Assembly: GCA_002067795.1 (NCBI GenBank)
Contig: MVQI01000029.1
Coordinates: forward strand, 1-64,000
Reading direction: 5' to 3'
Origin: Methanosaeta sp. PtaB.Bin039
GTDB lineage: Archaea > Halobacteriota > Methanosarcinia > Methanotrichales > Methanotrichaceae
DNA: 64,000 nt
In this document: piece after piece, positions 39,746 through 54,913 of the stretch
How the letters are laid out: each line of letters begins with the position of its first letter
How positions within the stretch are numbered: position 1 is the stretch's first letter
Made by a program: the position numbers and the translations under genes
The notes under the pieces: generated by a model
What the model was told of the DNA's origin: nothing
The model's database searches: none
What the model saw: only the letters and a program-made list of their open reading frames with translations

Positions 39746-40084
39746 TTACCCGGCATTCAGTACATAAATAGCTGAGGGGCCCAACGCAGATCCATAAGAG
39801 CTGTCACGAAGTCCCCGCTGCCCTCTATCGCCCGACACCAAGACCTGCCCCACCGAGCCCGTATGAGGGATTTTGCATCGCAAAGATATGCTGCGCGGGT
39901 CTGCCAGGACATCCCCTTCGAAATAAAGAGGTAATTGGAGCCTATGGCAGAAATTCAATTGGAGTTAGTAACCGCTCATCATCATAAATCCAAGACAACA
40001 TATAATCTGTTGTATATCGTAAAGAGGGCCCTAGAAAGCAAACCATTTAATTTGGAGAACGGATTATTCAAGAGGAGGTTTCTC
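39746..40084 (+). promoter_or_regulatory. Promoter region of the BREX cassette
   Basis: Candidate TATA boxes are ACATATAAT (39998-40006) and CCATTTAATTT (40043-40053), and GAGGAGGT (40073-40080) is a strong ribosome site for the first gene. The frame is open upstream to 39935, but that part is AT-rich and unlike BrxF. A run of CATCATCAT lies at 39977-39985. No gene is seen between the SnoaL-like gene and brxF. Confidence 0.5.
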
Positions 40085-40561
40085 ATGGTGAAGCCAATAG
40101 CTGATAAAGTTATACAAAGAATCGATCAGGCGTTAGTGCTTTACCACCGTCTTATCGTGCTAGTGGCCCCACCCTGTGGAGGCAAGACCGCTGCGCTCCA
40201 GGAGGTTCATGCGCGCACATCAGCACCGCTGATCAATGTTAATCTTGAACTGTGTAGGCGAATGCTAAACCTAGCCGAACGCCAGCGAGCTTTGCATTTG
40301 CCCCGACTACTTGGAGCACTTGTAGACGATTATGCATGCGATGTAGTTTTGCTGGACAATATCGAGGTACTCTTTGAGGTTTCGCTCATGCTAGATCCGC
40401 TACGACTGCTGCAGGGACTTTCGAGAAATAAGACTGTTGTTGTTGCATGGAGTGGCTCAATAGAAGACAATTGCTTGGTCTATGGGATCCCATGCCATCC
40501 AGAATACAAACGATATCCTTTAAGTGATTTCCTGGTAGTAAACCATAAAACCCTTGCATGA
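40085..40561 (+). CDS. brxF: BREX-3 P-loop protein BrxF
   Basis: A 158-residue NTPase-like protein specific to BREX type 3 anti-phage systems. Walker A is [12 protein letters not shown] (residues about 27-38) and a Walker B-like [12 protein letters not shown] lies near 85. The end is [23 protein letters not shown] 40085 follows GAGGAGGT and gives the usual length near 150; the longer frame adds 50 non-family residues. It is the first gene of the cassette; brxC begins 35 nt after its stop. Confidence 0.85.
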
Positions 40562-40595
40562 AGACCATTACCACAGAAAACGAGGTATTAATGCT

Positions 40596-43500
40596 ATGAA
40601 ATATGGAGATTTGATCCAATTTGAGCCAATTGAATCCGTTGTCCAGTTACGAGACGCCGACGAGGTAACGGCTGCCCGCCAACTTGTCAAAACCTACGTT
40701 GTCTCCGAAGAGATGGCTGATAAGCTGGTCAACCTCGTAATTTCTCAACTTCAGTTCGACAAACCCAGGGATAATAAGGGGCTGCTTGTTGTCGGCAACT
40801 ACGGAACGGGTAAATCGCATCTCTTGTCCGTTATCTCTGCATTGGCCGAGAATGATGATCTCGCTACTTATCTGAGCAACACAAAAGTTGCAGCCGCAGC
40901 CGTCATGATTAGTGGCCGCTTTAAGGTAGTCCGAACCGAGATCGGTGCTACGACAATGTCTCTGCGTGACATCATTGTAGCCGAACTCGAAGAACACTTA
41001 GCGGCCATGGGTGTGAGCTATTCCTTCCCTTCAGCGGATAAAGCTCCTAGCAACAAACCAGCCTTTGAAGAGATGATGAGCGCCTTCCACCAGGAATATC
41101 CCGACGATGGATTGCTCCTCGTGCTGGATGAATTGCTCGATTACTTGCGAACGCGCAAAGACCAGGAGCTGATACTTGACCTCAATTTTCTGCGCGAGAT
41201 CGGCGAGGTATGCAAAGACCTGCGATTCCGTTTCATCGCTGGTGTCCAGGAAGCCATCTTCGACAGCCCGCGGTTTGGTTTTGTCGGCGAAGAGTTTCTG
41301 CGAGTCATTAGAGCTCGCTTCGAACAGGTTCACATTGCCAAAACAGACATTAAATTCGTAGTGTCAGAGAGATTGCTTAAGAAGACTGCCGACCAGCAGG
41401 GGAAGATCAAGGATTACTTGACCCCCTTTTCTAGGTTCTACGGTCATATGAATGAGCGCATGGATGAGTTCGTGCGCCTCTTCCCTGTGCATCCCGACTA
41501 CATCGACACCTTTGAGCGAGTAACTGCAGTGGAAAAGCGTGAAGCGCTCAAGACGGTGTCGCTGGCCATGAAGAAGCTGATGGATCAAGATGTGCCTGAT
41601 GACCGGCCAGGAGTCATTGCATATGACAGCTATTGGACAATTCTGCAAGAGAATCCGTCATTCCGCGCAGTCCCAGCCATCAAGGCAGTCATCGATTGCA
41701 GCCAAGTACTTGAATCACGCATACAGCAAGTTTTCACCCGCCCAGCTTACAGACCCATGGCCCTGCGGATCATCCGCGCGCTTTCTGTTCACCGGCTCAC
41801 GACTGGGGATATCAATGCTCCACTCGGTGCAACTGCAGAGGAACTGCGCGACAGTCTATGCCTCTTTCAGCCAGGTATTGAGGGATTGGGTGGCGATCCG
41901 GCCGATGACCTTCTCTCTCAGGTCGAGACGGTTCTGCGGGAAATCCACAAAACAGTAAGCGGCCAGTTTATCTCCATAAATCTTGAAAACCGTCAGTTCT
42001 ACCTGGACCTAAAGAAGACCGAAGATTTCGATGCACTGATCGAGAAGAGAGCCGAAAGTCTTGATCTATCTCAGCTCGACCGCTACTACTACGAGGCGCT
42101 CAAGCGGCTCATGGAATGCACCGACCAGACTTATAAGACCGGGTACAATATATGGCAACGAGAGCTTGAATGGGTGGAGCGCAAAGCTATGCGCCAAGGG
42201 TACCTATTCTTCGGCTCGGCCAATGAACGTTGCACAGCGATACCGCCACGTGAGTTCTATCTTTACTTCATTCAACCCTTCGACCCACCTCGTTTCACAG
42301 ACGAGAAAAAGCCAGACGAGGTGTTCCTGCGTTTGACAAATAAAGACGATGAATTCCGCTCGTCACTTCGAAATTACGCTGCAGCCTTGGATCTCACATC
42401 CACTGCCTCAGGTCATGCCAAATCTACCTACGAATCCAAAGCATCATACTTCCTTCGTGACCTTGTTCAATGGCTTCAGAAGAACATGACCAACGCCTTC
42501 GAAGTTACCTACCAGGGGCGTTCTAAGTCCATGATTGACTGGGCTAAAGGCAGGTCAATTCGTGAACTTTCAGCCTCTAGCCCTCACGAGCGCATCAACT
42601 TCCGTGACATGGTATACACCATCGCCGGTATCTGCCTAAGCACACACTTTCAGGATCAGGCTCCAGAATATCCATACTTCTCAGTGCTCATCACTGGAAA
42701 GAACCGGCCACTAGTTGCCCAAGACGCTTTACGCGCTATCGCTGGACCGAATCGCACAAAGCAGGCCACTGCGGTGTTGGATGCCCTGGAGCTTCTTGAC
42801 GGAGATAGGCTTGATCCATCTCAATCCAGGTACGCTAAGTACATACTCTCAATGCTCAAGAAGAAAGGCCAAGGCCAAGTAATCAACCGATCCGAGGTGA
42901 TCCAGAATATCCTGGGCGTGGAGTATCTGGCACCAGAGAGCTTCCGGCTTGAGCCTGAATGGGCCGTGGTGGTGTTGGCAGCACTGGTCTACTCTGGCGA
43001 GGTGGTTCTCTCCATTCCGGGCAAGAAATTCAGCGCCACAGAGCTTCCACAACTGGCCGGCACTAGCATCGACGAACTGTTGCAGTTCAAACACATCGAG
43101 AGGCCTAAGGATTGGAACCTTCCGGCCCTCAAGGCGCTCTTCGAACTGCTCGGACTTCCGCCAGGCTTTGCCCAACAAATTACCCTGGGTAAGGACGAGC
43201 CTGTGCAGGAACTTCAGAAGTATGTCACAAGGACCGTTGAACAGGTAGTGCTTGTTCAGCAGAGCTTGCAATCAGGCCTGTTCTTCTGGGGTCGAAATCT
43301 TCTGACTGAGGATGAGGCAAAGATGCTTTACTCCAAACTGGATGCGACCAAAAACTTCCTCGAATCTCTACAGGCTTACACAACGACCGGCAAACTGAAG
43401 AATTTTCGCTACGATGCTTCAGAAGTCTCTGCCCATCGGGATGGACTTGCCTCCCTGGCTGAGATTAAAGCGCTTGAGGATCTTATAGCAGACCTCGGAT

Positions 43501-44327
43501 CGACCGCCTCGTACTTGTCCACCGCTGAGGCTGTCCTGCCTGCAAACCACGAATGGATTGAAAAGATGAAGGCGACTCGAAATGAGGTCTTGGCATCGAT
43601 CAGCGATCCCGTAAAGCGGAGTGCGGCCAATTTCCGTCAGCTGACTCAGTTCAAGCTCAGAGAACTAAAGAAAGCTTACTTGCTTTCATACCTCTCCATG
43701 CATGCCAAGGCGCGTCTGGGTGTGAATGAGGATAAGCGCAAGACCCAGCTCATGAGCGACGATAGGCTCAAGAAATTTCAGAAGCTCTCCGACATTGAAC
43801 TGATGCCGCGCCAGCAACTCTCGGACTTCCAAAAACGACTTGAAGGTTTGAAGAGCTGCGCTGCTCTCATTGAACAGGAACTAGAGGCCTCGCCGGTCTG
43901 CCCGCACTGCAACTTCAGACCAGGAGCTGAAGCTCCCGCCGCACCAGCCGCAACGATTTTGGATCACTTGGACACTGACCTTAATAATCTGGTAGATAGC
44001 TGGACCCAGACACTGCTTGCCAACCTCGAAGACCCAACTATCAAAGAGGACTTGGGCCTCCTCAAACCCGAACCGCGCAAACAGATTGACGACTTCATCA
44101 GAAAGCAGGTCCTACCGGATGACCTGGATCAGGACTTCATTCAGGCATTGAAGGACATTCTCTCGGGACTCACTAAGGTCTCGATAAAAATAGGGGACCT
44201 ACAGGACGCCCTTCTTGCAGGCGGCTCTCCAGCTACCCCAGAAGAGATGAGGAAACGGTTCGAGGGATACCTGAACAGACTTACCAAAGGAAAGGAGCCC
44301 GGCAAAGTGAGAATTGTGCTGGAGTAG
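40596..44327 (+). CDS. brxC: BREX ATPase BrxC/PglY (DUF6079 type)
   Basis: A very large (1243 residues) cytoplasmic P-loop ATPase that is a core BREX protein. Walker [13 protein letters not shown] is at about 68-79 and Walker [21 protein letters not shown] at about 172-191; an arginine-finger-like ESRIQQVF segment lies near 373. Coiled regions fill 950-1100, and one CPHC pair lies near 1108 ([13 protein letters not shown]). ATG 40596 follows GAGGT at 40582-40586. BrxC is thought to organise the complex on DNA. Its 3' end overlaps the ribosome site of the next gene (stop at 44327, ATG at 44332). Confidence 0.9.
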
Positions 44328-44331
44328 CAAA

Positions 44332-46152
44332 ATGAATCAGGAAGATTTGATAGCTCGGCTCAAGAAGTACGAATGGAATGATATCGAATTTAAAAAAGCC
44401 CAGCGTGGTGTACCGAATGACGCATATGAAAGTGTTTCTGCTTTTGCCAATACTGCGGGAGGCTATCTTGTTTTCGGCGTCGAGGACAACAAGGGATCTT
44501 TTAAAATTGTAGGGGTAATCGAGGTAGACAAGGTTCAGAACGATTTCCTGAGTTGTTTGCGGTCCGTTGGTAAGTTTAACCGCCCGATTCCAGTTCAAGA
44601 AAGCACATTAGAGCATGAAGGAAGGACCTTGTTGGTTTTCTATGTACCCGAAGTGCGTCGCATGGACAAACCAATTTACCTGAATGGCGACGTCACCGAA
44701 TCCTACATCCGACGTGGTGGTGGAGATGAGCGATGTACTGGTGATGAAATCAAGCGCTTCCTTCGTGATGCAGGGAGTATCACTTACGACAGCGAGGTAC
44801 TGTCCGATATAGATCCAGAAGATTTTTTTGACCCCTCATCCGTGGCTTGGTATAGGCGCGTACTTCAGGACAAACAAGGAAAACGGCATGCTGAATTGAA
44901 CGATGTTGAATTCCTCTATGAATGGGGATTTGTGGTAGAATCAGATAAAGAGCTTCGACCCACACGCGCTGCAGTATTGCTTTTCGGAAAGACAAGGTTA
45001 TTGCGCCACTTATTGCCGCGTGGCATTGTAGATTACCAGCGCATCGACGCAAGATTCGAAGATTGGTCACCTGAACATCGGTGGAGCGATAGGGTCATCG
45101 TGGAAGACAACATTATCCAGGCCTGGCAAGTGCTCGTCGAGAAATATTTTCGCCTTGCTGACAGACCGTTCTCGGTAGATGTTGTAACCTTGCGTCGCCA
45201 TGATGATCCGCCAGATTACATATCCTTCCGTGAAGCTGCCATTAACCTGCTAATCCATCAGGATTTTGGCGACCAAACTAGAAAGCCGGTTATAAAGATA
45301 TTCTCGGACCGCACGGTTTTTTGGAATCCGGGAGATGCTTTCGCCACCATGGATCAGCTCTTGGACCCGATCGAAAAAGAAGTCCGAAATCCTGCTATTG
45401 TAGCGGCTTTTCGACGCATCGGGCTGAGCGATCAGGCTGGCACGGGCGTTCGTTCAATTTTCGGCAATTGGCAGCAGTTGGGATTTGTCCCTCCGAGCAT
45501 CGTTAATGACAAGGGGGAGAAGACCTTCGAGATCACTTTGCTCAAAGAGATATTGTTAACCGAGGAGCAACGGCTATTTCAAGCCCAGTTGGGCGTTAGG
45601 CTCAGCGAGCAAGAAGCTGCCGTTTTTGCATATGCCTGCCGTGCCGGTGCAGTCAGCGTTACAGATGCAAAGGCAGTGATTGGACGCGGCTCTGGAGAAG
45701 CCGAAAGAATATTGGACCACTTGGTCACCCAAATCCTTCTTGCAGTTGTGGAGCCAAGAATGAGCTGGGAGCTGGCACCTCATCTCCAAGAGAGGTTTGC
45801 TCATGGTGACCAAGTACCTCCCATGGCGAGAGACTTGGTCACTGACCAACCTGAGTCGGAGGCAGTCAGCTTGGTCACTCCAAAACTGACCAAGTTCACC
45901 GAACAGCAGCGAAAGATTCTGGCGCTTTGCGAGGTGCCACGAACCCAGGCTGACCTCATGAAGACACTCGGAGTATCTCATCGCACCTTTTTCCGCCGCA
46001 CGCATTTAGAGCCTTTGATTAAGGCAAATCTGGTGCAAATGACCCATCCTGAAGAGCCCAATCACCCGAACCAGAAATATGTAATCACTGAGGCCGGGCT
46101 TGGCCTTATCTCCTCTTGGAGGGCCAATGCAGAAGGAAGAGGTAATTCATGA
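44332..46152 (+). CDS. AlbA_2/GHKL-ATPase/winged-helix protein inside the BREX cassette
   Basis: A 606-residue protein, start ATG 44332 after GGAG. Order of domains: AlbA_2 (Schlafen-like) nucleic-acid-binding domain at about 15-130 (DIEFKKAQ, AFANTAGGYLVFGVEDNKG), HATPase_c_4 (RecG C-terminal-like) at about 290-350 (FREAAINLLIHQDF, ISFREA), and a C-terminal winged helix at about 520-590 (FTEQQRKILALCEVPRTQADLMKTLGVSHRTFFRR). COG2865-type proteins like this are usually called transcriptional regulators. It is not one of the six standard BREX-3 genes. It could regulate the cassette or act as an additional defence effector. Transcribed with brxC (5-nt gap). Confidence 0.75.
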   Translation: MNQEDLIARLKKYEWNDIEFKKAQRGVPNDAYESVSAFANTAGGYLVFGVEDNKGSFKIVGVIEVDKVQNDFLSCLRSVGKFNRPIPVQESTLEHEGRTLLVFYVPEVRRMDKPIYLNGDVTESYIRRGGGDERCTGDEIKRFLRDAGSITYDSEVLSDIDPEDFFDPSSVAWYRRVLQDKQGKRHAELNDVEFLYEWGFVVESDKELRPTRAAVLLFGKTRLLRHLLPRGIVDYQRIDARFEDWSPEHRWSDRVIVEDNIIQAWQVLVEKYFRLADRPFSVDVVTLRRHDDPPDYISFREAAINLLIHQDFGDQTRKPVIKIFSDRTVFWNPGDAFATMDQLLDPIEKEVRNPAIVAAFRRIGLSDQAGTGVRSIFGNWQQLGFVPPSIVNDKGEKTFEITLLKEILLTEEQRLFQAQLGVRLSEQEAAVFAYACRAGAVSVTDAKAVIGRGSGEAERILDHLVTQILLAVVEPRMSWELAPHLQERFAHGDQVPPMARDLVTDQPESEAVSLVTPKLTKFTEQQRKILALCEVPRTQADLMKTLGVSHRTFFRRTHLEPLIKANLVQMTHPEEPNHPNQKYVITEAGLGLISSWRANAEGRGNS

Positions 46153-46258
46153 GCATTATCATCTGGCAGGACAGACATACTCCATCAACCAGCCGACTTG
46201 TACACTGCACAAGTTCGCTCCCTAGCAGAATGGTTGGTGACTCTTAAGGTCGCTAAGA

Positions 46259-49075
46259 ATGAGGAAACCCATGAAGAAGCATAAACGCATCGAAGGCAAC
46301 AGCAAAATCCAATTGGGGACGGCAAAACCACAAGGGCCGGTAGAATGCCTGGGCATGAGCTTCCCGGACGATAATGCCCGTCGAGAGCATTTCCTTGGCA
46401 TTCTGAGGGAGAAGCTGAAGGATCCGGAATTCCGGAAGATAGAAGGATTCCCCATCGGCTCAGATGAGGATATCCTGGCGCTGTCAGACCCCCCATATTA
46501 TACCGCCTGTCCGAATCCGTTTATTGCTGACTTTATAAAATACTATGGCAAGACATATGACCCGACAAAGCCCTACAGCCGTGAGCCTTTTGCAGCAGAT
46601 GTGAGTGAAGGAAAGAACGACCCAATATATAATGCACATTCTTACCACACCAAGGTTCCGCACAAGGCCATCATGAGGTACATCCTCCATTATACAGAGC
46701 CAGGGGACTTGGTATTTGATGGATTTTGCGGAACAGGGATGACGGGTGTAGCGGCTGCCTTATGCAGAGAATCCCGAAAAGATCAAATGACGTTTGCCCG
46801 AAGAACTTTAGAGGGACAGCGATGGGCAATTCTCGCGGATCTTTCACCTGTTGCAACATTCATCGCAAGTAACCTGCTTAGACCTGTTGATCGGACCGAG
46901 TTTCAAAAGGCATTTAAGGCAGTTTGTGCAGTCGTTGAAAAAGAGTTTGGGTATCTCTATTCAACCCACCATTCAGGATGGAAGGTTCGTGACAGAAAAA
47001 ATGTAGGACACAGACAATATGCAAATAATTATAATACACAAGGTAGCATTGAGTTCACTCTCTATTCTGATGTCGTTAGATGTCCTGAATGTACAACTGA
47101 AATTACGCTTTACGAAGTGCTCGTAGACGAGAAAAGCGACTCTCTCAGGTCAGATATTAAATGTCCTAACTGCAAGGCGGTAGTTCCAGAATCAAAATGG
47201 GAGTCGGTGAATACTGCATTCTACGATACAATTCTTAAAAAGACCATCCAACAACTACGCATTGAACCGGTTCTGATCAACTATAGCGTCGGATCAACAA
47301 GATATGAGAAGTTTCCCGATGAGCAAGATAGAGAGAAATTAGCTACGGCTGAGAGGCTGCTTGCTACTGTAGGGTTACCGGCAATAGCTCTAATCGAGGG
47401 TAAGGAAACACAACGGAATATTCCAATTGGAATAACTCACTTACATCATTTTTTTACCCATCGTGAGCACCTATTTGTGGCAGCTCTATTAAAAGAAGTA
47501 CAGAAATATCCTGACAGTAATATACGTCAGATGCTGCTTTTTGCCCTAACTGCTTCGCTTCCATACGCATCAAGGATGCGTCGGTTTCGTGCAGATCGAA
47601 AAGGAGGCGGTCCGTTGTCTGGCACTCTGTATATAAGCTCATTAATTACGCCTCCACATGTATTGAAGACGTTTCTGAGAAACGCAGCAACTATTGCAGA
47701 TAGCCTGACGCCTCCCGTTGATCCCATAGGTGGCCACATAATCAGTACGCAAGATGCAGGGCACCTAAATCAAATACCAGATTCAACTGTCGATTACATT
47801 TTTACAGATCCTCCGTTTGGTCATAACTTCGATTATTCAGAATTGAATTTCTTTTGGGAGGGATTACTCGGAGTTGTTACTAACCAAGAGCATGAAGCCA
47901 TAGTTAGCGTATCACAGGGGAAGGATATTGATAAGTATCGTGATCTTATGGAAAAGAGCTTTTCGGAATACTACCGCATCTTAAAGCCTGGGCGATGGTT
48001 GACCGTAGAATTTTCCAATACAAAGGCCTCTGTGTGGAATGCAATCCAATCTGCTCTAGAACAAAGCGGTTTTGTTGTAGCCAATGTGGCTTCACTCGAT
48101 AAGAAGCAGCACTCGTTTAAGGCAGTAATGACTCCTACGGCTGTTAAGCAAGACCTCATAATCTCGGCCTACAAGCCCAATGGCGGTCTTGAAGACCGTT
48201 TCAATCTTGAAGCAGGTACCGAAGAAGGTGTCTGGGACTTTATCCGCACTCATTTAAGGCAGCTTCCAGTCTTTGTATCCGATAAAGACGACGTCGAAGT
48301 AATCGCCGAGCGTCAAAATTTCCTGCTCTTCGATTGCATGGTAGCTTTCCACGTTCAGCGCGGTGTAACAGTTCCGCTATCCGCTGCAGAGTTTTACGAA
48401 GGGCTTGTCCAGAGATTCGCTGAACGTGATAATATGTACTTCCTTTCCGAACAGGTGGCTGAGTACGACAAAAAGCGCATGACAACTAAAGATGTTCTAC
48501 AGCTTAAGCTATCAGTTACAGATGAATCCTCGGCCATCCTTTGGCTCAAACAGCAGCTCCTCAAGAAGCCCCAGACCTTTCAGGAACTTCACCCGCAATT
48601 CCTCAAGGAAATTGGTGGAGGCTGGCAAAAAAATGAGAAGCCATTGGAGTTATCCGAACTGCTCGCACAAAACTTCTTGCGCTACGATGGCAAGGGCGAG
48701 GTGCCACACCGCATTCACAGCTACTTATCTACTAACTTCAAGGACCTTCGCAACTTGCCCAAAGATGATGAACGCCTGCGAGCCAAAGGCAAAGATCGCT
48801 GGTATGTGCCCGATCCTAACCAGGCAGGGGATCTGGAGAAGCTGCGGGAGAGGTCGCTGCTCAAGGAGTTTGATGAGTACCGGATGGCAGGCCAGAAGCG
48901 TCTAAAAGTCTTCCGCCTCGAGGCCGTCCGCGCTGGCTTCAAGAAAGCATGGCAGGAGCGAGACTACGATACCATCATCTCTGTGGCCCGCAAGATTCCT
49001 GAGAACGTTCTGCAGGAAGACCCAAAACTCCTCATGTGGTATGACCAGGCGCTCACACGTTCCGGAAAGGAATAA
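46259..49075 (+). CDS. pglX: BREX adenine-specific DNA methyltransferase (PglXI-like, Zn-ribbon)
   Basis: A 938-residue SAM-dependent DNA methylase of the COG1743 group used by BREX-3. Catalytic and SAM motifs: LSDPPYYTACPNPFIADF near 75-92, VFDGFCGTGMTGVAAALC near 154-171 (SAM loop), TDPPFGHNFDYSELNFFWEG near 517-536 (second N6A/N4C motif). A zinc ribbon with CPEC near 277 and CPNC near 303 lies between them. C-terminal about 250 residues are helical. MRKPMKK offers two starts, 46259 or 46271. It probably marks self DNA. The 106-nt gap before it has only short frames. Confidence 0.88.
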   Translation: MRKPMKKHKRIEGNSKIQLGTAKPQGPVECLGMSFPDDNARREHFLGILREKLKDPEFRKIEGFPIGSDEDILALSDPPYYTACPNPFIADFIKYYGKTYDPTKPYSREPFAADVSEGKNDPIYNAHSYHTKVPHKAIMRYILHYTEPGDLVFDGFCGTGMTGVAAALCRESRKDQMTFARRTLEGQRWAILADLSPVATFIASNLLRPVDRTEFQKAFKAVCAVVEKEFGYLYSTHHSGWKVRDRKNVGHRQYANNYNTQGSIEFTLYSDVVRCPECTTEITLYEVLVDEKSDSLRSDIKCPNCKAVVPESKWESVNTAFYDTILKKTIQQLRIEPVLINYSVGSTRYEKFPDEQDREKLATAERLLATVGLPAIALIEGKETQRNIPIGITHLHHFFTHREHLFVAALLKEVQKYPDSNIRQMLLFALTASLPYASRMRRFRADRKGGGPLSGTLYISSLITPPHVLKTFLRNAATIADSLTPPVDPIGGHIISTQDAGHLNQIPDSTVDYIFTDPPFGHNFDYSELNFFWEGLLGVVTNQEHEAIVSVSQGKDIDKYRDLMEKSFSEYYRILKPGRWLTVEFSNTKASVWNAIQSALEQSGFVVANVASLDKKQHSFKAVMTPTAVKQDLIISAYKPNGGLEDRFNLEAGTEEGVWDFIRTHLRQLPVFVSDKDDVEVIAERQNFLLFDCMVAFHVQRGVTVPLSAAEFYEGLVQRFAERDNMYFLSEQVAEYDKKRMTTKDVLQLKLSVTDESSAILWLKQQLLKKPQTFQELHPQFLKEIGGGWQKNEKPLELSELLAQNFLRYDGKGEVPHRIHSYLSTNFKDLRNLPKDDERLRAKGKDRWYVPDPNQAGDLEKLRERSLLKEFDEYRMAGQKRLKVFRLEAVRAGFKKAWQERDYDTIISVARKIPENVLQEDPKLLMWYDQALTRSGKE

Positions 49076-49078
49076 AAA

Positions 49079-50164
49079 ATGCCAAGAGCCAAAAGGGATG
49101 TTGCAGAGCTTAAGAAGCGAGCCGTTAACTCCTTGGTGCTTGGAATCGAACTGTTCAATCGACCACATGAGCAAGGGCGCTCCGAAAGCGTCCTGATCCT
49201 CTTGCATCATGCCTTCGAGATGCTTTTGAAGGCAATTATCAAGGACAAGACGGGAACAGTTCATGCAAAGGGGGAGAAATACTCCTATGGTTTCGATAAG
49301 TGCTTGGAAATCGCCCAGAACGAAATTAAAGTGATCTCTCCTGATGAGCGCGCTACTTTGTCGATTCTTGATGCTCACCGAGACATTGCCATTCACTATT
49401 ATCAAGAGGTATCTGAAGATCTTCTTTATCTACAGGCCCAAGCGGCGGTCACATTATTTGATGATTTGCTGCAATTGGTCTTCACGGAGAGGCTTGCTGA
49501 TTGTATACCGAAACGAGTTCTGCCAATTTCGACGCGACCGCCGAAAGATCTAAAAGTGCTGATAGACAGCGAATTGAGCCAAGTCGACGAACTACTACAG
49601 GCAGGGAGTCGCAAAGGAATCCAAGCAGCAGCCAGATTGAGGCCTATTCTAGCTATGGCAACTGCTACTCGCGAAAACGCGGAGCGAGTAACTGAAAGTG
49701 AATTGCGAAAAGCTATAAGCAGAAGGCGGCAAGGAGATGACTGGAGTATCATACTTCCTGAAGTTGCTCAGCTCAAACTTGATACCCAGGGAGACGGGAT
49801 CCCTATTTTCCTTCGTATCAAGAAAGATGCTGACATTGCTGTTCGTATTGCCAAAGACAACGAGCCAGTCATTGGAACATTGATCAAACAAGAAATCAAC
49901 ATCTGGGACAAGTACAACCTTGGCAGGGATGATATTGCCGAGAAGCTAGGTATATCTGGACCAAGAACAAGCGCTCTGATATTTGAGTTGAATATTCAAA
50001 AAGATCCAGAATGTTTCAAAATATTGCGAAGAAAATCTTCAATATTCAAAGGTTACAGCAAAAAGGCATTGGAGCAGCTCCAGTCAGCCATGCTAGGTGG
50101 AATAGATATAGATGCCATATGGGAAAAGCATAGAGATCGGTTTAGAGCCAAAAAGCGGAAATGA
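49079..50164 (+). CDS. DUF3644 HEPN-domain protein in the BREX cassette
   Basis: A 361-residue protein beginning 3 nt after the methyltransferase stop (TAA then AAA before ATG). The N-terminal 130 residues are helical DUF3644: SVLILLHHAFEMLLKAIIKD, then LDAHRDIAIHYYQE, which contains R101-x4-H106, the R-X4-6-H motif of HEPN ribonucleases. The central 120-250 region has TESELRKAISRR. The C-terminal domain (about 260-350) contains a predicted winged-helix (LGRDDIAEKLGISGPRTSALIFEL). This is a HEPN RNase candidate fused to a DNA-binding domain. It occupies the position where BREX-3 has the helicase BrxHII. Function within BREX is inferred. Confidence 0.75.
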   Translation: MPRAKRDVAELKKRAVNSLVLGIELFNRPHEQGRSESVLILLHHAFEMLLKAIIKDKTGTVHAKGEKYSYGFDKCLEIAQNEIKVISPDERATLSILDAHRDIAIHYYQEVSEDLLYLQAQAAVTLFDDLLQLVFTERLADCIPKRVLPISTRPPKDLKVLIDSELSQVDELLQAGSRKGIQAAARLRPILAMATATRENAERVTESELRKAISRRRQGDDWSIILPEVAQLKLDTQGDGIPIFLRIKKDADIAVRIAKDNEPVIGTLIKQEINIWDKYNLGRDDIAEKLGISGPRTSALIFELNIQKDPECFKILRRKSSIFKGYSKKALEQLQSAMLGGIDIDAIWEKHRDRFRAKKRK

Positions 50165-50224
50165 TGGGTAGTTTAACAGGTATATGGTCCCTATGCACTT
50201 CGAAAAGCTTGTAATAATAGGCGA

Positions 50225-52243
50225 ATGGCGATGGGCATGAATACCTGGCGTGATGAAATCCTGAAGGAGTTCCCCACTGGTATCGCTCGGCTTACTATCG
50301 TAGTTGATCCCGACGCGCTTTTGTTCGAAGAAGGTATTCTTGAAGCGGTCCGTGAAAGGGGATTTGAACTCATACCTTTTGAAGACCATATTGCATTCCG
50401 CTATGCTTATGAATCGAAATTTCGAACTCGCTGGGACCGAGGCGAGCATATCGACCAATGTGCCGTATTGCACTCTCAAACCAACGACCTAAGTGGAGTC
50501 CCCTTCGATTTACTGCAAGCTGGCCGCAGAGTATCGTTCAGTTTGGGCGATATCTTTCCAAACCTCAGCTATCCGGTCGTGTCCGCATTGGATCGAGAAG
50601 ATCTCGATGCTCTATATGAGGCTCAGAGAATGAATGCTCCGGGCCCTTTGGGCGACAATGCCACCAAGGAGTTCATACTTAGGCACGTCTATAAAATCGC
50701 ACCTGAGCTGATCAAGCAGCCATCGGAACTTCTTTTGGTGTTGCTGCGACGCCACTATGCAGGCCAGAATATCCCTGAGGTGCTGGATGAACGATTCATC
50801 CAGCTCCTGCATCAATGCGCTCAATTCGACGACTGGCCGCTCGATGCACTGGTTACAGATCGAGAGGCTTTCTTTGCATTCCTGCAAGAGCGATGGCCGA
50901 TCTTCCTCGACCGCGAGGCTGCCGAAAGAACGCCCCTGGTTGGTGAAGACAATACATCCTATAGTTTGGCCTTTGAAGGACCTGCTGATCTGCCCTTCGA
51001 TCACGATGACGTTCGTGTCTACATAGACAACCTCTTTGTAGAAGGACTTATACATCCAGTATCTCATAAGCACTCTGACATATTGTCCAAAACTTGGGCC
51101 GGCATAGGGATTCGAACCTATTCTATCGAAGATAAATCACGTCGCCTGGAAAAACTCATCGAGAGTCTAAAGGCATCCATTCCGGTCGAAGATGCAAAAT
51201 ATAAAGATTGGCTGCACTTTGCACGAGGATGGGCGGAACTGGTTCTGCTTATCAATGAGCAAGCTGAGGGCATTTTTCGAGACCTAATTGAGCAAGCCAG
51301 AAATCTGCAGTCACAGGTAGATGCACGTTTTACAGACTGGCTCCTCAATCGCTACTCCGGGCTGGCCAATCTGCCGCCAATGCCTCCTGTGATGTTACAC
51401 CACGTGCCCCGATTTCTGTCTCGTCAGATGGACGGCGACCGCTATGCTAAGATGGCATTGATCGTGGTGGATGGCCTTTCCATGGATCAATGGCTGGTGG
51501 TCCGAAACTCCATCTCCTCGTGCCATTCAAGCTTTCGTTTCCGAGAACAAGCGGTCTTCGCTTGGATTCCGTCGCTCACATCCGTTTCACGCCAGGCCCT
51601 CTTTGCTGGCAAAGCCCCCATATTTTTCCCAAGCAGCATCCAGACCACGGACAAAGAGGCTTCACTATGGAGGCAGTTCTGGTCGGACTATGGCTTAAAG
51701 TCAAACGAAATCGTGTTCATCAAGGGTCTGGGCGATGGCAGTTTAGATTCCGTATCAGAAGCAGTATCTCATCCTAAGACAAGGATTGCTGGATTGGTCG
51801 TGGACAAAGTCGATAGGATCATGCATGGAATGGAACTGGGCATTGCTGGCATGCACAATCAGGTCGGCCAGTGGGCCAGACAACCAAATTTAAGTAACCT
51901 CTTCAATCTGCTTCTGGATAATGGATTCCAAGTCTATCTGACTTCTGACCACGGCAACATCGAGGCAGAAGGCTGTGGCCGCCCTGCAGAGGGAGCCGTG
52001 GCAGACTTTCGCGGTGAACGAGTACGAATCTACTCTAATCAAGCCCTCCGCAGTAGGGTGAAGGAACACTTTCCTTCCGCATTGGAATGGGACCCCATCG
52101 GCCTCCCGGACGATTACCTAGCACTTATGGCTCCGGCTAGACGAGCATTTGTCCAGGAGAGACAGCATACTGTAAGTCATGGGGGCATATCTATCGAAGA
52201 ACTCATTGTCCCCCTTGTTCGGATAGAGAGGATGGGCCAATGA
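50225..52243 (+). CDS. pglZ: BREX-3 alkaline phosphatase superfamily protein PglZ
   Basis: A 672-residue core BREX protein of the alkaline phosphatase fold. Metal-binding motifs are VVDGLSMDQW (near 413-422; the Asp and Ser), TSDHGNIEAEG (near 573-583) and HTVSHGGISIEELIVPLVRIE at the end (His metal ligand and the PglZ signature). The N-terminal 400 residues are helical. Start ATG 50225, with two further in-frame ATGs at 50231 and 50237. The stop overlaps the next ATG by 4 nt (ATGA). PglZ is the hallmark gene of all BREX systems and is essential in those tested. Confidence 0.93.
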   Translation: MAMGMNTWRDEILKEFPTGIARLTIVVDPDALLFEEGILEAVRERGFELIPFEDHIAFRYAYESKFRTRWDRGEHIDQCAVLHSQTNDLSGVPFDLLQAGRRVSFSLGDIFPNLSYPVVSALDREDLDALYEAQRMNAPGPLGDNATKEFILRHVYKIAPELIKQPSELLLVLLRRHYAGQNIPEVLDERFIQLLHQCAQFDDWPLDALVTDREAFFAFLQERWPIFLDREAAERTPLVGEDNTSYSLAFEGPADLPFDHDDVRVYIDNLFVEGLIHPVSHKHSDILSKTWAGIGIRTYSIEDKSRRLEKLIESLKASIPVEDAKYKDWLHFARGWAELVLLINEQAEGIFRDLIEQARNLQSQVDARFTDWLLNRYSGLANLPPMPPVMLHHVPRFLSRQMDGDRYAKMALIVVDGLSMDQWLVVRNSISSCHSSFRFREQAVFAWIPSLTSVSRQALFAGKAPIFFPSSIQTTDKEASLWRQFWSDYGLKSNEIVFIKGLGDGSLDSVSEAVSHPKTRIAGLVVDKVDRIMHGMELGIAGMHNQVGQWARQPNLSNLFNLLLDNGFQVYLTSDHGNIEAEGCGRPAEGAVADFRGERVRIYSNQALRSRVKEHFPSALEWDPIGLPDDYLALMAPARRAFVQERQHTVSHGGISIEELIVPLVRIERMGQ

Positions 52244-53013
52244 TAAGACGAACAGATCAGATCGGATTCAATCAGCGAGTGCGGATGGAATGGTTTGAAC
52301 AAACCGCCAATTTGGCCCTAGCTGGAAATGACGAAGCTATGGTTAGAGAGGCTTTGCAGGAGCTTCTAAAAGACAAAGTCTCTGTGGGTAGCCAAGCCAA
52401 GCGCAGTAATCGTGAAAAGGTCATCACAATTCTCCTGAAAACGTGGATAACTGTTCCGACCGATCTTGAGGAAATGCGTGACGAAGGGCTTGAATATTTA
52501 AAACGTCTTCCGCGATCAGATCATCTGATCATACATTGGGGCATGGCAATGGCTGTTTATCCGTTCTGGTCTAGTGTAGCTTTTCAGGTGGGTCGACTAT
52601 TGAGACTTCAAGATTGTGCAGCTGCCGCTCATGTGCAGCGCCGTATCCGGGAGCAATATGGCGAGAGGGAGACGGTCTCCCGCTCAGCCCGCCGAGTGTT
52701 ACGTTCTTATCTAGACTGGGGCGTGCTTCAGGAATCCAATTCAAAGGGGATCTACACCGCCGGAAAGACGCTTTACATTGATGACCCCCGCTTGATATCT
52801 TGGCTGATTGAGACTGATCTTCATGCTCGGGTCAGCGGGTCGGCACCATTGAGGGAATTACTTGATAGCCCGAGTTTATTTCCATTTAGGATCAAGCCTA
52901 TATATGCAGAAAACCTTATGACAGTATTGTCCAGAGTCGAGATTTTCCGCCAAGGGTTGGATGAAGATATTGTGATGCTGCGAAAACCAATCACGAAAGA
53001 AGGTGCACCCTGA
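52240..53013 (+). CDS. BrxA-position protein of the BREX cassette
   Basis: A 257-residue helical protein overlapping pglZ by 4 nt. Sequence includes RNSREKVITILLKTWITVP-like helices, LPRSDHLIIHWGMAMAVYPFWSSVAFQVGRLLRLQ, and RRVLRSYLDWGVLQESNSKGIYTAGKTLYID, the last resembling a winged-helix with a dimer wing. The BREX-3 gene order predicts BrxA here (a DNA-binding family), and the length of about 200-260 and the wHTH-like layout fit. I assign it by position and shape, not by a recognised motif. The gene ends at 53013 with TGATG, which overlaps a short decayed frame. Confidence 0.6.
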   Translation: MIRRTDQIGFNQRVRMEWFEQTANLALAGNDEAMVREALQELLKDKVSVGSQAKRSNREKVITILLKTWITVPTDLEEMRDEGLEYLKRLPRSDHLIIHWGMAMAVYPFWSSVAFQVGRLLRLQDCAAAAHVQRRIREQYGERETVSRSARRVLRSYLDWGVLQESNSKGIYTAGKTLYIDDPRLISWLIETDLHARVSGSAPLRELLDSPSLFPFRIKPIYAENLMTVLSRVEIFRQGLDEDIVMLRKPITKEGAP

Positions 53014-53783
53014 TGCTACAGGGTCCTACCTCCGCAGACTTCCGCTTTCCCTCGTACTTATCCTTATCTTCCCGTCTTTATTCCAGTAAAGTGCGAGGAT
53101 GGCGCTCATAACTCGCGCTGGCTCCAGCAGAGCTACAAGTGGCCTTGCTACACCTCATCTTCTGCGGCACGCGGCTGTCCTGCTCTGTGAAGCTCGACCA
53201 CCTGGGCTTGCTCACCCTTCATCTCTGTCTGCTCCTGGGCACCCTGATAAGGTCTTTATGGTAGCTGACAAAAACCGCGGCAAAATAGAGCTGGGCGGAA
53301 AAATAGAGCCAAGACAAGCTGAGGATCGCTGTACCGAATCCCCATTATGAGGACTGATGAGTGAGGTCATATTTCCTTAATGAATTACATGTGACCGATA
53401 ATATAATGATCCTTTTTAAGTTCTAAGCTTTGTAACCTTAACGCCGCATCATGTGGGGAATAGATAGTTGTGACAGCCAATGGGTTTCGATTTGAGAGTC
53501 ACATATTCCCCAAATGTGGGGAATATAGTTCTCAGGTCACCGATAGCATGAGGCTATGTTTGGGATGACTATTCCCCAATCTTGCAGAGTTAAGATTTGT
53601 AAATTGTTATGTCGGAAAATAGTAGCAAATGACCCCTGCACCCCTCATGTTAAGGTTGCGTTCTTGCTCTCCGCCACTTAGGCTCAACTATTTCGCGCAA
53701 TTCCTGACCTCTGATAGAATTGCTATGACCAGACGGTCTTTGCTAGAATCGCAATCTTATACAAAAGATTGCAGGTAAAATTA
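53014..53783. other. Right edge of the BREX island
   Basis: An ATG overlapping the BrxA stop (TGATG, 53011-53015) opens a frame of only 32 codons, ending at 53111. A different frame stays open for a further stretch. This could be the stump of a lost downstream gene. From 53380 on it is AT-rich, with four copies of a GGGGAATA box. No intact gene is seen. Confidence 0.4.
53453..53578. repeat. Four GGGGAATA boxes in alternating orientation
   Basis: Copies: GTGGGGAATAG (53453-53463), TATTCCCC (53504-53511, reverse), GTGGGGAATA (53516-53525), CTATTCCCCA (53569-53578, reverse). Copies 2 and 3 form a palindrome (ATTCCCC-AAATGT-GGGGAAT). Copies 1 and 2 are extended by TGTGAC/GTCACA. The set can fold as two hairpins or bind a dimeric protein at two sites. 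Confidence 0.8.
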
Positions 53784-53880
53784 CGCCGAGGGTGAGATTC
53801 GAACTCACGAGACCCTTTCGAGTCACCAGCTTTCCAGGAGATCTCTCCAGGCTGGCGCCCTACCGCTAGACGACCTCGGC
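53784..53880 (-). tRNA. tRNA-Ser (GGA), with an apparent 13-nt intron
   Basis: Minus-strand cloverleaf: acceptor GCCGAGG/CCTCGGC, T arm GTGAG/CTCAC with TTCGAAT, a type II variable arm GACTC-GAAA-GGGTC (serine type), and anticodon stem CCAGC/GCTGG. Between the stem halves are 20 nt (53831-53850) instead of 7, so 13 nt are extra, consistent with an archaeal intron near position 37/38. The anticodon is GGA whichever exact splice point is used, because CTGGA occurs at both ends. It is the last gene on this strand before the BREX island. Confidence 0.85.
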
Positions 53881-53881
53881 A

Positions 53882-54913
53882 CTATCGCCTGTACTGACCA
53901 GGCTGCATCTTCCAGCGCCTGGGATAGATGCCCGTCTCCATTATGACCCTTTCGGTCGAGACCACCAGCCCTTGTCGGGCCTGATGCATATGACCGCTAT
54001 CCATAGCTGCCTTTCCAACAGCCACAGCCTCACCCTTAAGGGTGTACATGGCCACGACATCGCCCTGATTTATATCTGTTTCCAGGCTCAGCAGGCCTGG
54101 CGCGGCCAGGGGAGAGCCGTGGCATATGGCGTCAACTGCGCTGTCGGCTATGACCAGACGGGGCAGATGGGAGATGGCTCTCTCAACTGGAAATACCGCC
54201 TGGCGCAAAGCGCCCTCATCCCCGCCCTCCCGCCAGGCGAGATAGGCGTCCTTGAGCTGGTGCAGTGTCACCAATCCCTCGTCCTCGCTAAAAGGGCCAG
54301 CCCTCGTCCGGCGCAGCTCCTCCATATTTGCGCCGGTGCCAAAAACCAGACCCATATCGAAACACAGCTTGCGGATGTAGGTCCCTGCCTCGCATCCTAC
54401 CCGCATCAGAACCCTTGGGCCGTCGATCTCCAGCACCTGCAGATAATATATCTTCCTCGTGCGCAAAACCTTCGCCACGCTCGATTTCAGTGGCGGTCTC
54501 TGATATATCTCCCCAGTGAACTGCTGACAGACCTCAAGGACCCTCTTGCGGGGGACGGCCCCGTGCACGCGCATGAGGCAGATGTACTCCTTGCCGGCGG
54601 TAAGCAGTGTATCCATCACGCGCGTGGCATCCCCCAGAAGAACCGGCAGCACACCGGTCACCCGGGGATCGAGCGTTCCGCTGTGCCCGGCTTTCTCCAC
54701 CTCCAGGATGCGCTTGACCCAGGCCACAACCTCATGGCTGGTTGGCCCCGAGGTCTTGTCCAGGTTTATGGCCCCCAGACGCAGATGCCGCTCCATGCTC
54801 CTCTTCTCAGGCTCGGTCCCGTAAGAGGGATCGGTATGGCCCTTCTTGCGGACCAGAACCGACCTGACCCGCTGGGATGGAAGTATGGCCGAAGAACTGT
54901 CATCTGACTTCAT
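53882..54913 (-). CDS. truB: tRNA pseudouridine-55/rRNA pseudouridine synthase Cbf5
   Basis: Archaeal Cbf5/TruB: makes pseudouridine in tRNA and, with Nop10, Gar1 and L7Ae, in rRNA guided by H/ACA RNA. 343 residues from ATG 54913; a GTG 11 codons earlier is also in frame and overlaps cmk. The catalytic motif is KAGHSGTLDPRVTGVLPVLLG (Asp in the middle), then RVGCEAGTYIRKL, and a C-terminal PUA domain with IADSAVDAICHGSPLAAPGLLSLE and GDVVAMYTLKGEAVAVGKA. It is the last protein gene of the operon; stop at 53882 is 2 nt from the tRNA-Ser start. Confidence 0.95.
   Translation of the reverse strand: MKSDDSSSAILPSQRVRSVLVRKKGHTDPSYGTEPEKRSMERHLRLGAINLDKTSGPTSHEVVAWVKRILEVEKAGHSGTLDPRVTGVLPVLLGDATRVMDTLLTAGKEYICLMRVHGAVPRKRVLEVCQQFTGEIYQRPPLKSSVAKVLRTRKIYYLQVLEIDGPRVLMRVGCEAGTYIRKLCFDMGLVFGTGANMEELRRTRAGPFSEDEGLVTLHQLKDAYLAWREGGDEGALRQAVFPVERAISHLPRLVIADSAVDAICHGSPLAAPGLLSLETDINQGDVVAMYTLKGEAVAVGKAAMDSGHMHQARQGLVVSTERVIMETGIYPRRWKMQPGQYRR

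Follow-up and report, generated by a model that had tools for sequence, protein, structure and literature searches.

BREX operons have extra genes between pglX and pglZ in roughly 7000 of 9000 genomes, BrxU and PARIS being two of the most frequent known ones (PMC11341690). HEPN and Schlafen proteins have been catalogued as backup effectors of BREX, and the helicase BrxHII occurs in 77% of type-3 BREX systems (PMC12839542). The DUF4145-HEPN protein BxaP occupies the interval between PglXI and BrxHII of type-3 BREX and protects E. coli from T4 abortively, without need of BREX (PMC10799925). DUF3644 has been counted among the HEPN families since 2013, with the warning that its Pfam model also takes in unrelated AbiJ-NTD2 sequences (PMC3710099). 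A HEPN accessory in BREX is thus not new in kind (PMC3710099; PMC12839542; PMC10799925). Our literature search found no RNase or defence test of any DUF3644/PDC-S19 protein.

The window, the whole 64,000-nucleotide stretch of archaeal DNA analysed here, contains an operon at 39935-53013 of the plus strand in the order BrxF, BrxC, Schlafen-HATPase-wHTH, PglXI, DUF3644, PglZ and BrxA (Table 1). By PADLOC profiles, which match all of BrxF, BrxC, PglXI, PglZ and BrxA, the locus is a type-3 BREX lacking BrxHII. G+C content is 42-52% in the BREX region (40000-53999) compared with 57-61% in the ribosomal-protein region to its right, a difference of the kind expected for a transferred island. No tRNA genes were found within 30000-64000. 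The DUF3644 ATG lies 3 nt past the PglXI stop, and the GGAAAGGA stretch within the PglXI 3' end can serve as a candidate ribosome-binding site; a promoter and terminator scan around the gene gave no excess over shuffles. The DUF3644 and Schlafen genes are both still intact reading frames, the latter being a second predicted backup effector of the operon. The listed PglZ start is probably 12 nt too early, ATG 50237 being likelier since relatives begin MSSWRD and the window reads MNTWRD from that position.

Table 1. Operon features in the window, and scars and cargo genes in related type-3 BREX loci (L numbers, with positions in locus coordinates).
Feature	Position or locus	Strand	Evidence or remark
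BrxF (type-3 BREX)	39935..40561	+	PADLOC BrxF, E=3.2e-69
BrxC/DUF6079 ATPase	40554..44327	+	PADLOC BrxC, E=0, full length; Pfam DUF6079, E=0
Schlafen AlbA_2 + HATPase_c_4 + wHTH accessory gene, BrxC-PglXI interval	44314..46152	+	Pfam SLFN_AlbA_2 1.7e-16, Fic-like_C (wHTH) 1.8e-13, HATPase_c_4 1.9e-12
PglXI/BrxXI DNA methyltransferase	46259..49075	+	PADLOC PglXI, E=0
DUF3644/PDC-S19 protein	49079..50164	+	361 aa; predicted HEPN aa 1-156, helical middle, C-terminal winged helix ~275-356
R101-X4-H106 motif (RDIAIH)	49379..49396	+	R and H invariant, 33/33 relatives
Putative BrxHII start remnant, ~10 codons (ATGATGGGTAGTTTAACAGGTATATGGTCC; ATGATGGGTAGTTTAACAGGTATATGG)	50161..50190	+	Overlaps DUF3644 stop as BrxHII does in relatives
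PglZ	50225..52243	+	PADLOC PglZ, 5.6e-294
BrxA	52240..53013	+	PADLOC BrxA, 1.1e-101
Scar	L014:12350-12619		BrxHII aa 6-48 followed by last 50 aa of PglXI; flanked by 506-aa gene and DUF3644
Scar (L022/L023)	L022:5946-6247		First ~60 aa of BrxHII followed by last ~33 aa of PglXI; flanked by PDC-S28 and DUF3644
Scar	L025:11083-11290		Start of BrxHII followed by last 25 aa of PglXI; flanked by DUF3644 and 449-aa gene
Scar	L024:11083-11320		BrxHII first 39 aa, then PglXI-like stretch RIEAACLGLKNAWQEG; before PglZ
IetA+IetS, PglXI-BrxHII slot	L084		IetA in L085; IetS in L091 (partner gene same size); L094 same gene sizes
HamB-like PDC-M23B, PglXI-BrxHII slot	L088		
GajA+GajB (Gabija), PglXI-BrxHII slot	L090		
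PsyrT+PsyrA (PsyrTA) + GmrSD-like, PglXI-BrxHII slot	L092		
AbiU/AIPR, PglXI-BrxHII slot	L093		
PD-T4-6-like kinase, PglXI-BrxHII slot	L095		
HEC-02A, PglXI-BrxHII slot	L097		
PDC-M34A, PglXI-BrxHII slot	L098		
PDC-S28, PglXI-BrxHII slot	L022		

On profile matches the protein belongs to PDC-S19/DUF3644, which is already catalogued and therefore not a new family. Pfam DUF3644 covers residues 12-156 (E=1.5e-16, 61 bits against a curated cut-off of 27.6), a weak Pfam HepT-like match covers residues 82-128 (E=0.035), and the PADLOC PDC-S19 match is full-length (PDLC04951, E=1.9e-115; PDLC04947, E=1.3e-111; 384 bits). The PDB holds no convincing sequence homologue, the best match (E=0.02) being of a C-terminal stretch to an unrelated protein. 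The preliminary description of this DNA had read HRDIAIHYY as a HEPN R-X4-H motif and named conservation in a multiple alignment as one check. Translation gives H100-R101-D-I-A-I-H106, confirming the motif, and the alignment bears out its conservation. This alignment comprises 33 relatives at 28-86% identity, the window protein included, taken from genome contigs and whole archaeal genomes; it leaves out L027, L036 and L038, which look frameshifted, and counts L023, nearly identical to L022, once. R101, H106, K51, C75, E113, Y117 and W348 are invariant in all 33, E47 in the 32 rows that cover it and the F26-N-R-P29 block likewise wherever covered. Invariance of R101 and H106 across this range of identity argues that R-X4-H is not a chance match, and conservation of the motif places the window protein in the HEPN part of DUF3644 rather than with AbiJ-NTD2. 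Y108, the last residue of R-X4-H-X-Y, is present in the window protein and the BREX/BR clade, and is replaced, mainly by L, I or V, in most RM-associated relatives.

An AlphaFold2 model from the 33-sequence alignment (mean pLDDT 83, pTM 0.65) predicts a five-helix N-terminal domain (H3-26, H34-58, H72-82, H88-106, H113-135). After a helical middle and a small beta pair comes a C-terminal HTH (H283-290, H294-303) with a beta-hairpin wing (313-318, 321-326). The motif, earlier placed within a helical bundle, does fall in the predicted helical domain, where it closes helix 88-106, and the C-terminal HTH-like segment AEKLGISGPRTSALIFEL that had been cited is the predicted HTH. The comparison with HEPN structures points the same way, at E-values short of significance: among the Foldseek matches listed for the full model against the PDB, all with a probability of at least 0.9 are HepT/HEPN structures (5yep, 6m6u, 6m6w, 7bxo and 2hsb, the last with TMt 0.79 at 2.9 Å), with E-values of 0.27 or worse and none below 0.1 for the full model. 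Aligned by hhalign, at low probability, the N-terminal profile and archaeal HepT bring RDIAIHYY and RDVLIHQY into register (RD-x3-H). Modelled on their own, residues 205-361 (pLDDT 79) have as their best PDB match the RacA DNA-binding domain (Foldseek probability 0.99, E=0.06); the next matches are mainly winged helices of MarR, ArsR and MerR. These individually weak structural tests combine with the motif and the published placement of the family in HEPN (PMC3710099) to make the predicted HEPN-wHTH architecture a firm reading. The predicted winged helix could serve autoregulation instead of targeting.

The closest relatives (61-86% identity; L014, L020-L026, with L021 and L024 bacterial) belong to type-3 BREX and lie between PglXI and BrxHII. 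Distant relatives (28-45%) adjoin type I RM genes in L034, L012/L042, L019, L044, L030 and L013/L045, most clearly in L034, where the relative lies between HsdS and HsdR. Others adjoin Hma/BREX-related genes (L028, L050, L031) or type IIG methyltransferase and Snf2 helicase genes (L046, L041). Given this spread of restriction settings, the DUF3644 protein is, by genomic context, a portable restriction-associated HEPN module and not a fixed BREX part. Thirteen plasmid records carry distant relatives, all below 60% identity, and phage or viral carriage was discarded, no relative being present in IMG/VR or phage records. Among the close loci the HEPN protein is 79-86% identical compared with 54-58% for PglXI and 63-67% for PglZ; this divergence was dropped as proof of separate HEPN transfer, as the pattern is compatible with slower change too.

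Occupancy of the PglXI-BrxHII slot was counted in 26 loci picked by BrxHII alone, with PglXI and BrxHII on one contig and loci first found via DUF3644 excluded. Extra co-directional genes lie in the slot in 20 of the 26 (14/15 loci of one bacterial phylum, and 6/11 when the window's phylum is taken together with a second bacterial set), and DUF3644 in none. Where DUF3644-chosen loci are included, the PglZ-BrxA interval holds extra genes in 0/21 loci and the BrxHII-PglZ interval in 3/21; a 1616-aa ORF at L097:11659-16509 is a rare insertion of the latter kind. The BrxC-PglXI interval is a second slot, occupied in 11/15, most often by Schlafen-like genes, which also lie there in L021, L025, L093, L095, L099 and L100.

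Four loci carry scars between cargo genes in which a BrxHII 5' fragment is followed by a PglXI 3' fragment; one-sided scars occur in L087, L092 and L097, and breakpoints vary from locus to locus. Such scars between cargo genes suggest that cargo accreted in tandem. They are most simply explained by a junction between two BREX operons carrying different cargo, with one broken in BrxHII and the other in PglXI, so that a single intact copy of each core gene was retained and the cargo stacked. Local duplication with deletion may equally have produced such scars. Evenly poised, in our estimate, is the wider reading that the PglXI-BrxHII interval serves as a dedicated bay for cargo, complete defence systems (IetAS, Gabija, PsyrTA, HamB-like, AbiU, HEPN) having been gained and stacked there by end-to-end joining of two BREX operons, leaving BrxHII 5' fused to PglXI 3' as the scar and one intact PglXI and BrxHII, with DUF3644/HEPN one such cargo. 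Such a bay, with its joining scars, is what this analysis was less expected to yield, and the accessible portions of the literature gave no description of it. Two other gene arrangements were recorded. The archaeal type-3 BREX at L155:1182-6891 has two full-length PglXI genes in tandem, then four cargo genes and BrxHII. At L017:7567-8226 a BrxHII N-terminus continues in frame into the C-terminal half of DUF3644, which holds the winged helix; the HEPN domain is missing, and an intact BrxHII lies downstream.

A BrxHII profile search of the whole 96%-complete window genome returned no match, and a BrxHII protein query nothing but a 29%-identical helicase stretch. The ATGATGGGTAGTTTAACAGGTATATGG remnant looks like the beginning of BrxHII as it stands in L020, L022 and L024, and none of 1500 shuffles and none of 638 other post-TGA sites in the window scores as well. 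With no copy in the genome and a start remnant overlapping the DUF3644 stop, BrxHII was probably deleted from the window operon, which may be impaired without it. L024 likewise lacks BrxHII and keeps its first 39 codons; since the two remnants differ in length, the losses look separate and secondary. The direct placement of DUF3644 between PglXI and PglZ in both loci, in a genome otherwise devoid of BrxHII in the case of the window, would suit a role as dedicated and essential effector of this BREX subtype, in place of the missing helicase. We consider this very improbable given that DUF3644 stands alongside intact BrxHII in L014, L021, L022 and L025, that L020 and L026 run into BrxHII, that unequal remnants mark the loss in the window and L024, and that none of the 26 BrxHII-chosen loci has DUF3644 in the slot. 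A substitute for BrxHII was thus rejected: the two coexist in most close loci, and BrxHII remnants trail DUF3644 where BrxHII is gone. The preliminary description had further proposed the protein as the effector arm of this BREX. The HEPN motif, helical fold, winged helix and BREX location in that proposal all stand; the effector arm itself is not supported, because most sampled type-3 loci lack DUF3644, its relatives accompany type I RM, Hma/BR and type IIG genes, and the slot holds many unrelated defence genes.

Proximity to HepT, the nearest structural family, also raises a toxin-antitoxin arrangement, in which the HEPN toxin is neutralised by an adjacent antitoxin, as in HepT/MntA, or by its own winged helix as repressor. 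In the BREX/BR clade Y108 stands where HepT has its tyrosine, and the wHTH could autoregulate, but such a pairing is unlikely: the window BREX locus has no MNT nucleotidyltransferase antitoxin, no other antitoxin gene adjoins DUF3644 there, Y108 is replaced in most RM-associated relatives and the neighbours are restriction genes. HepT-type TA in particular was not supported, with MNT absent and the tyrosine not conserved. Some HEPN proteins are non-catalytic RNA binders, and with its predicted winged helix the protein might instead be a HEPN/wHTH regulator without catalysis, binding RNA or DNA to govern how the restriction operon is expressed. MtlR is among the families regarded as non-catalytic (PMC3710099); these lack the motif, however, while the R and H of the present family do not vary across relatives of 28-86% identity, and the DUF3644 gene lies mid-operon rather than at the operon head, which makes such a regulator decidedly unlikely.

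Its place in a slot for exchangeable defence genes makes a portable backup effector, rather than a BREX core effector, the most likely identity of the DUF3644 protein. It is rather probable that it acts as a HEPN-wHTH accessory in the PglXI-BrxHII cargo slot, as an abortive-infection RNase tethered to DNA or a complex, a proposal for which we infer catalysis, dimer, trigger, RNA target and abortive outcome. Through dimerisation, the N-terminal HEPN domain would bring R101 and H106 into a metal-independent RNase site; the protein would be held at DNA or the restriction complex by its winged helix and by being co-translated with the methyltransferase. When phage blocks or overwhelms the restriction system, the HEPN site would cut RNA and infection would be aborted. 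The module would move between type 3 BREX, type I RM, Hma/BR and type IIG systems; the window operon has probably lost BrxHII since, leaving a short scar. PDC-S19, an uncharacterised defence candidate linked to at least four kinds of restriction system, thereby gains a concrete predicted active site. A slot with recombination scars makes gene gain inside an operon by defence islands testable through sequence survey.

Among known systems, BrxU and PARIS are likewise defence genes between methyltransferase and PglZ; they differ in belonging to type-1 BREX and to other effector families, and no joining scars are described for them in the accessible parts of the sources (PMC11341690, PMC12373910). 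HepT of MntA-HepT shares the R-X4-H in register and is the nearest solved fold, whereas the window protein lacks an MNT partner, belongs to a family in which the H+2 tyrosine is not conserved, and has extra C-terminal domains. BxaP is closer in setting: it too is a predicted HEPN protein adjoining PglXI and preceding BrxHII in type-3 BREX, with homologues in type I RM (PMC10799925). Set apart by description, BxaP combines DUF4145 with a HEAT-like C-terminus and has been tested, while the window protein has no Pfam match to DUF4145 and instead combines DUF3644 with a predicted winged helix. The window protein is a member of PDC-S19/DUF3644, catalogued without function or mechanism, and its BREX slot and RM partners are worked out here.
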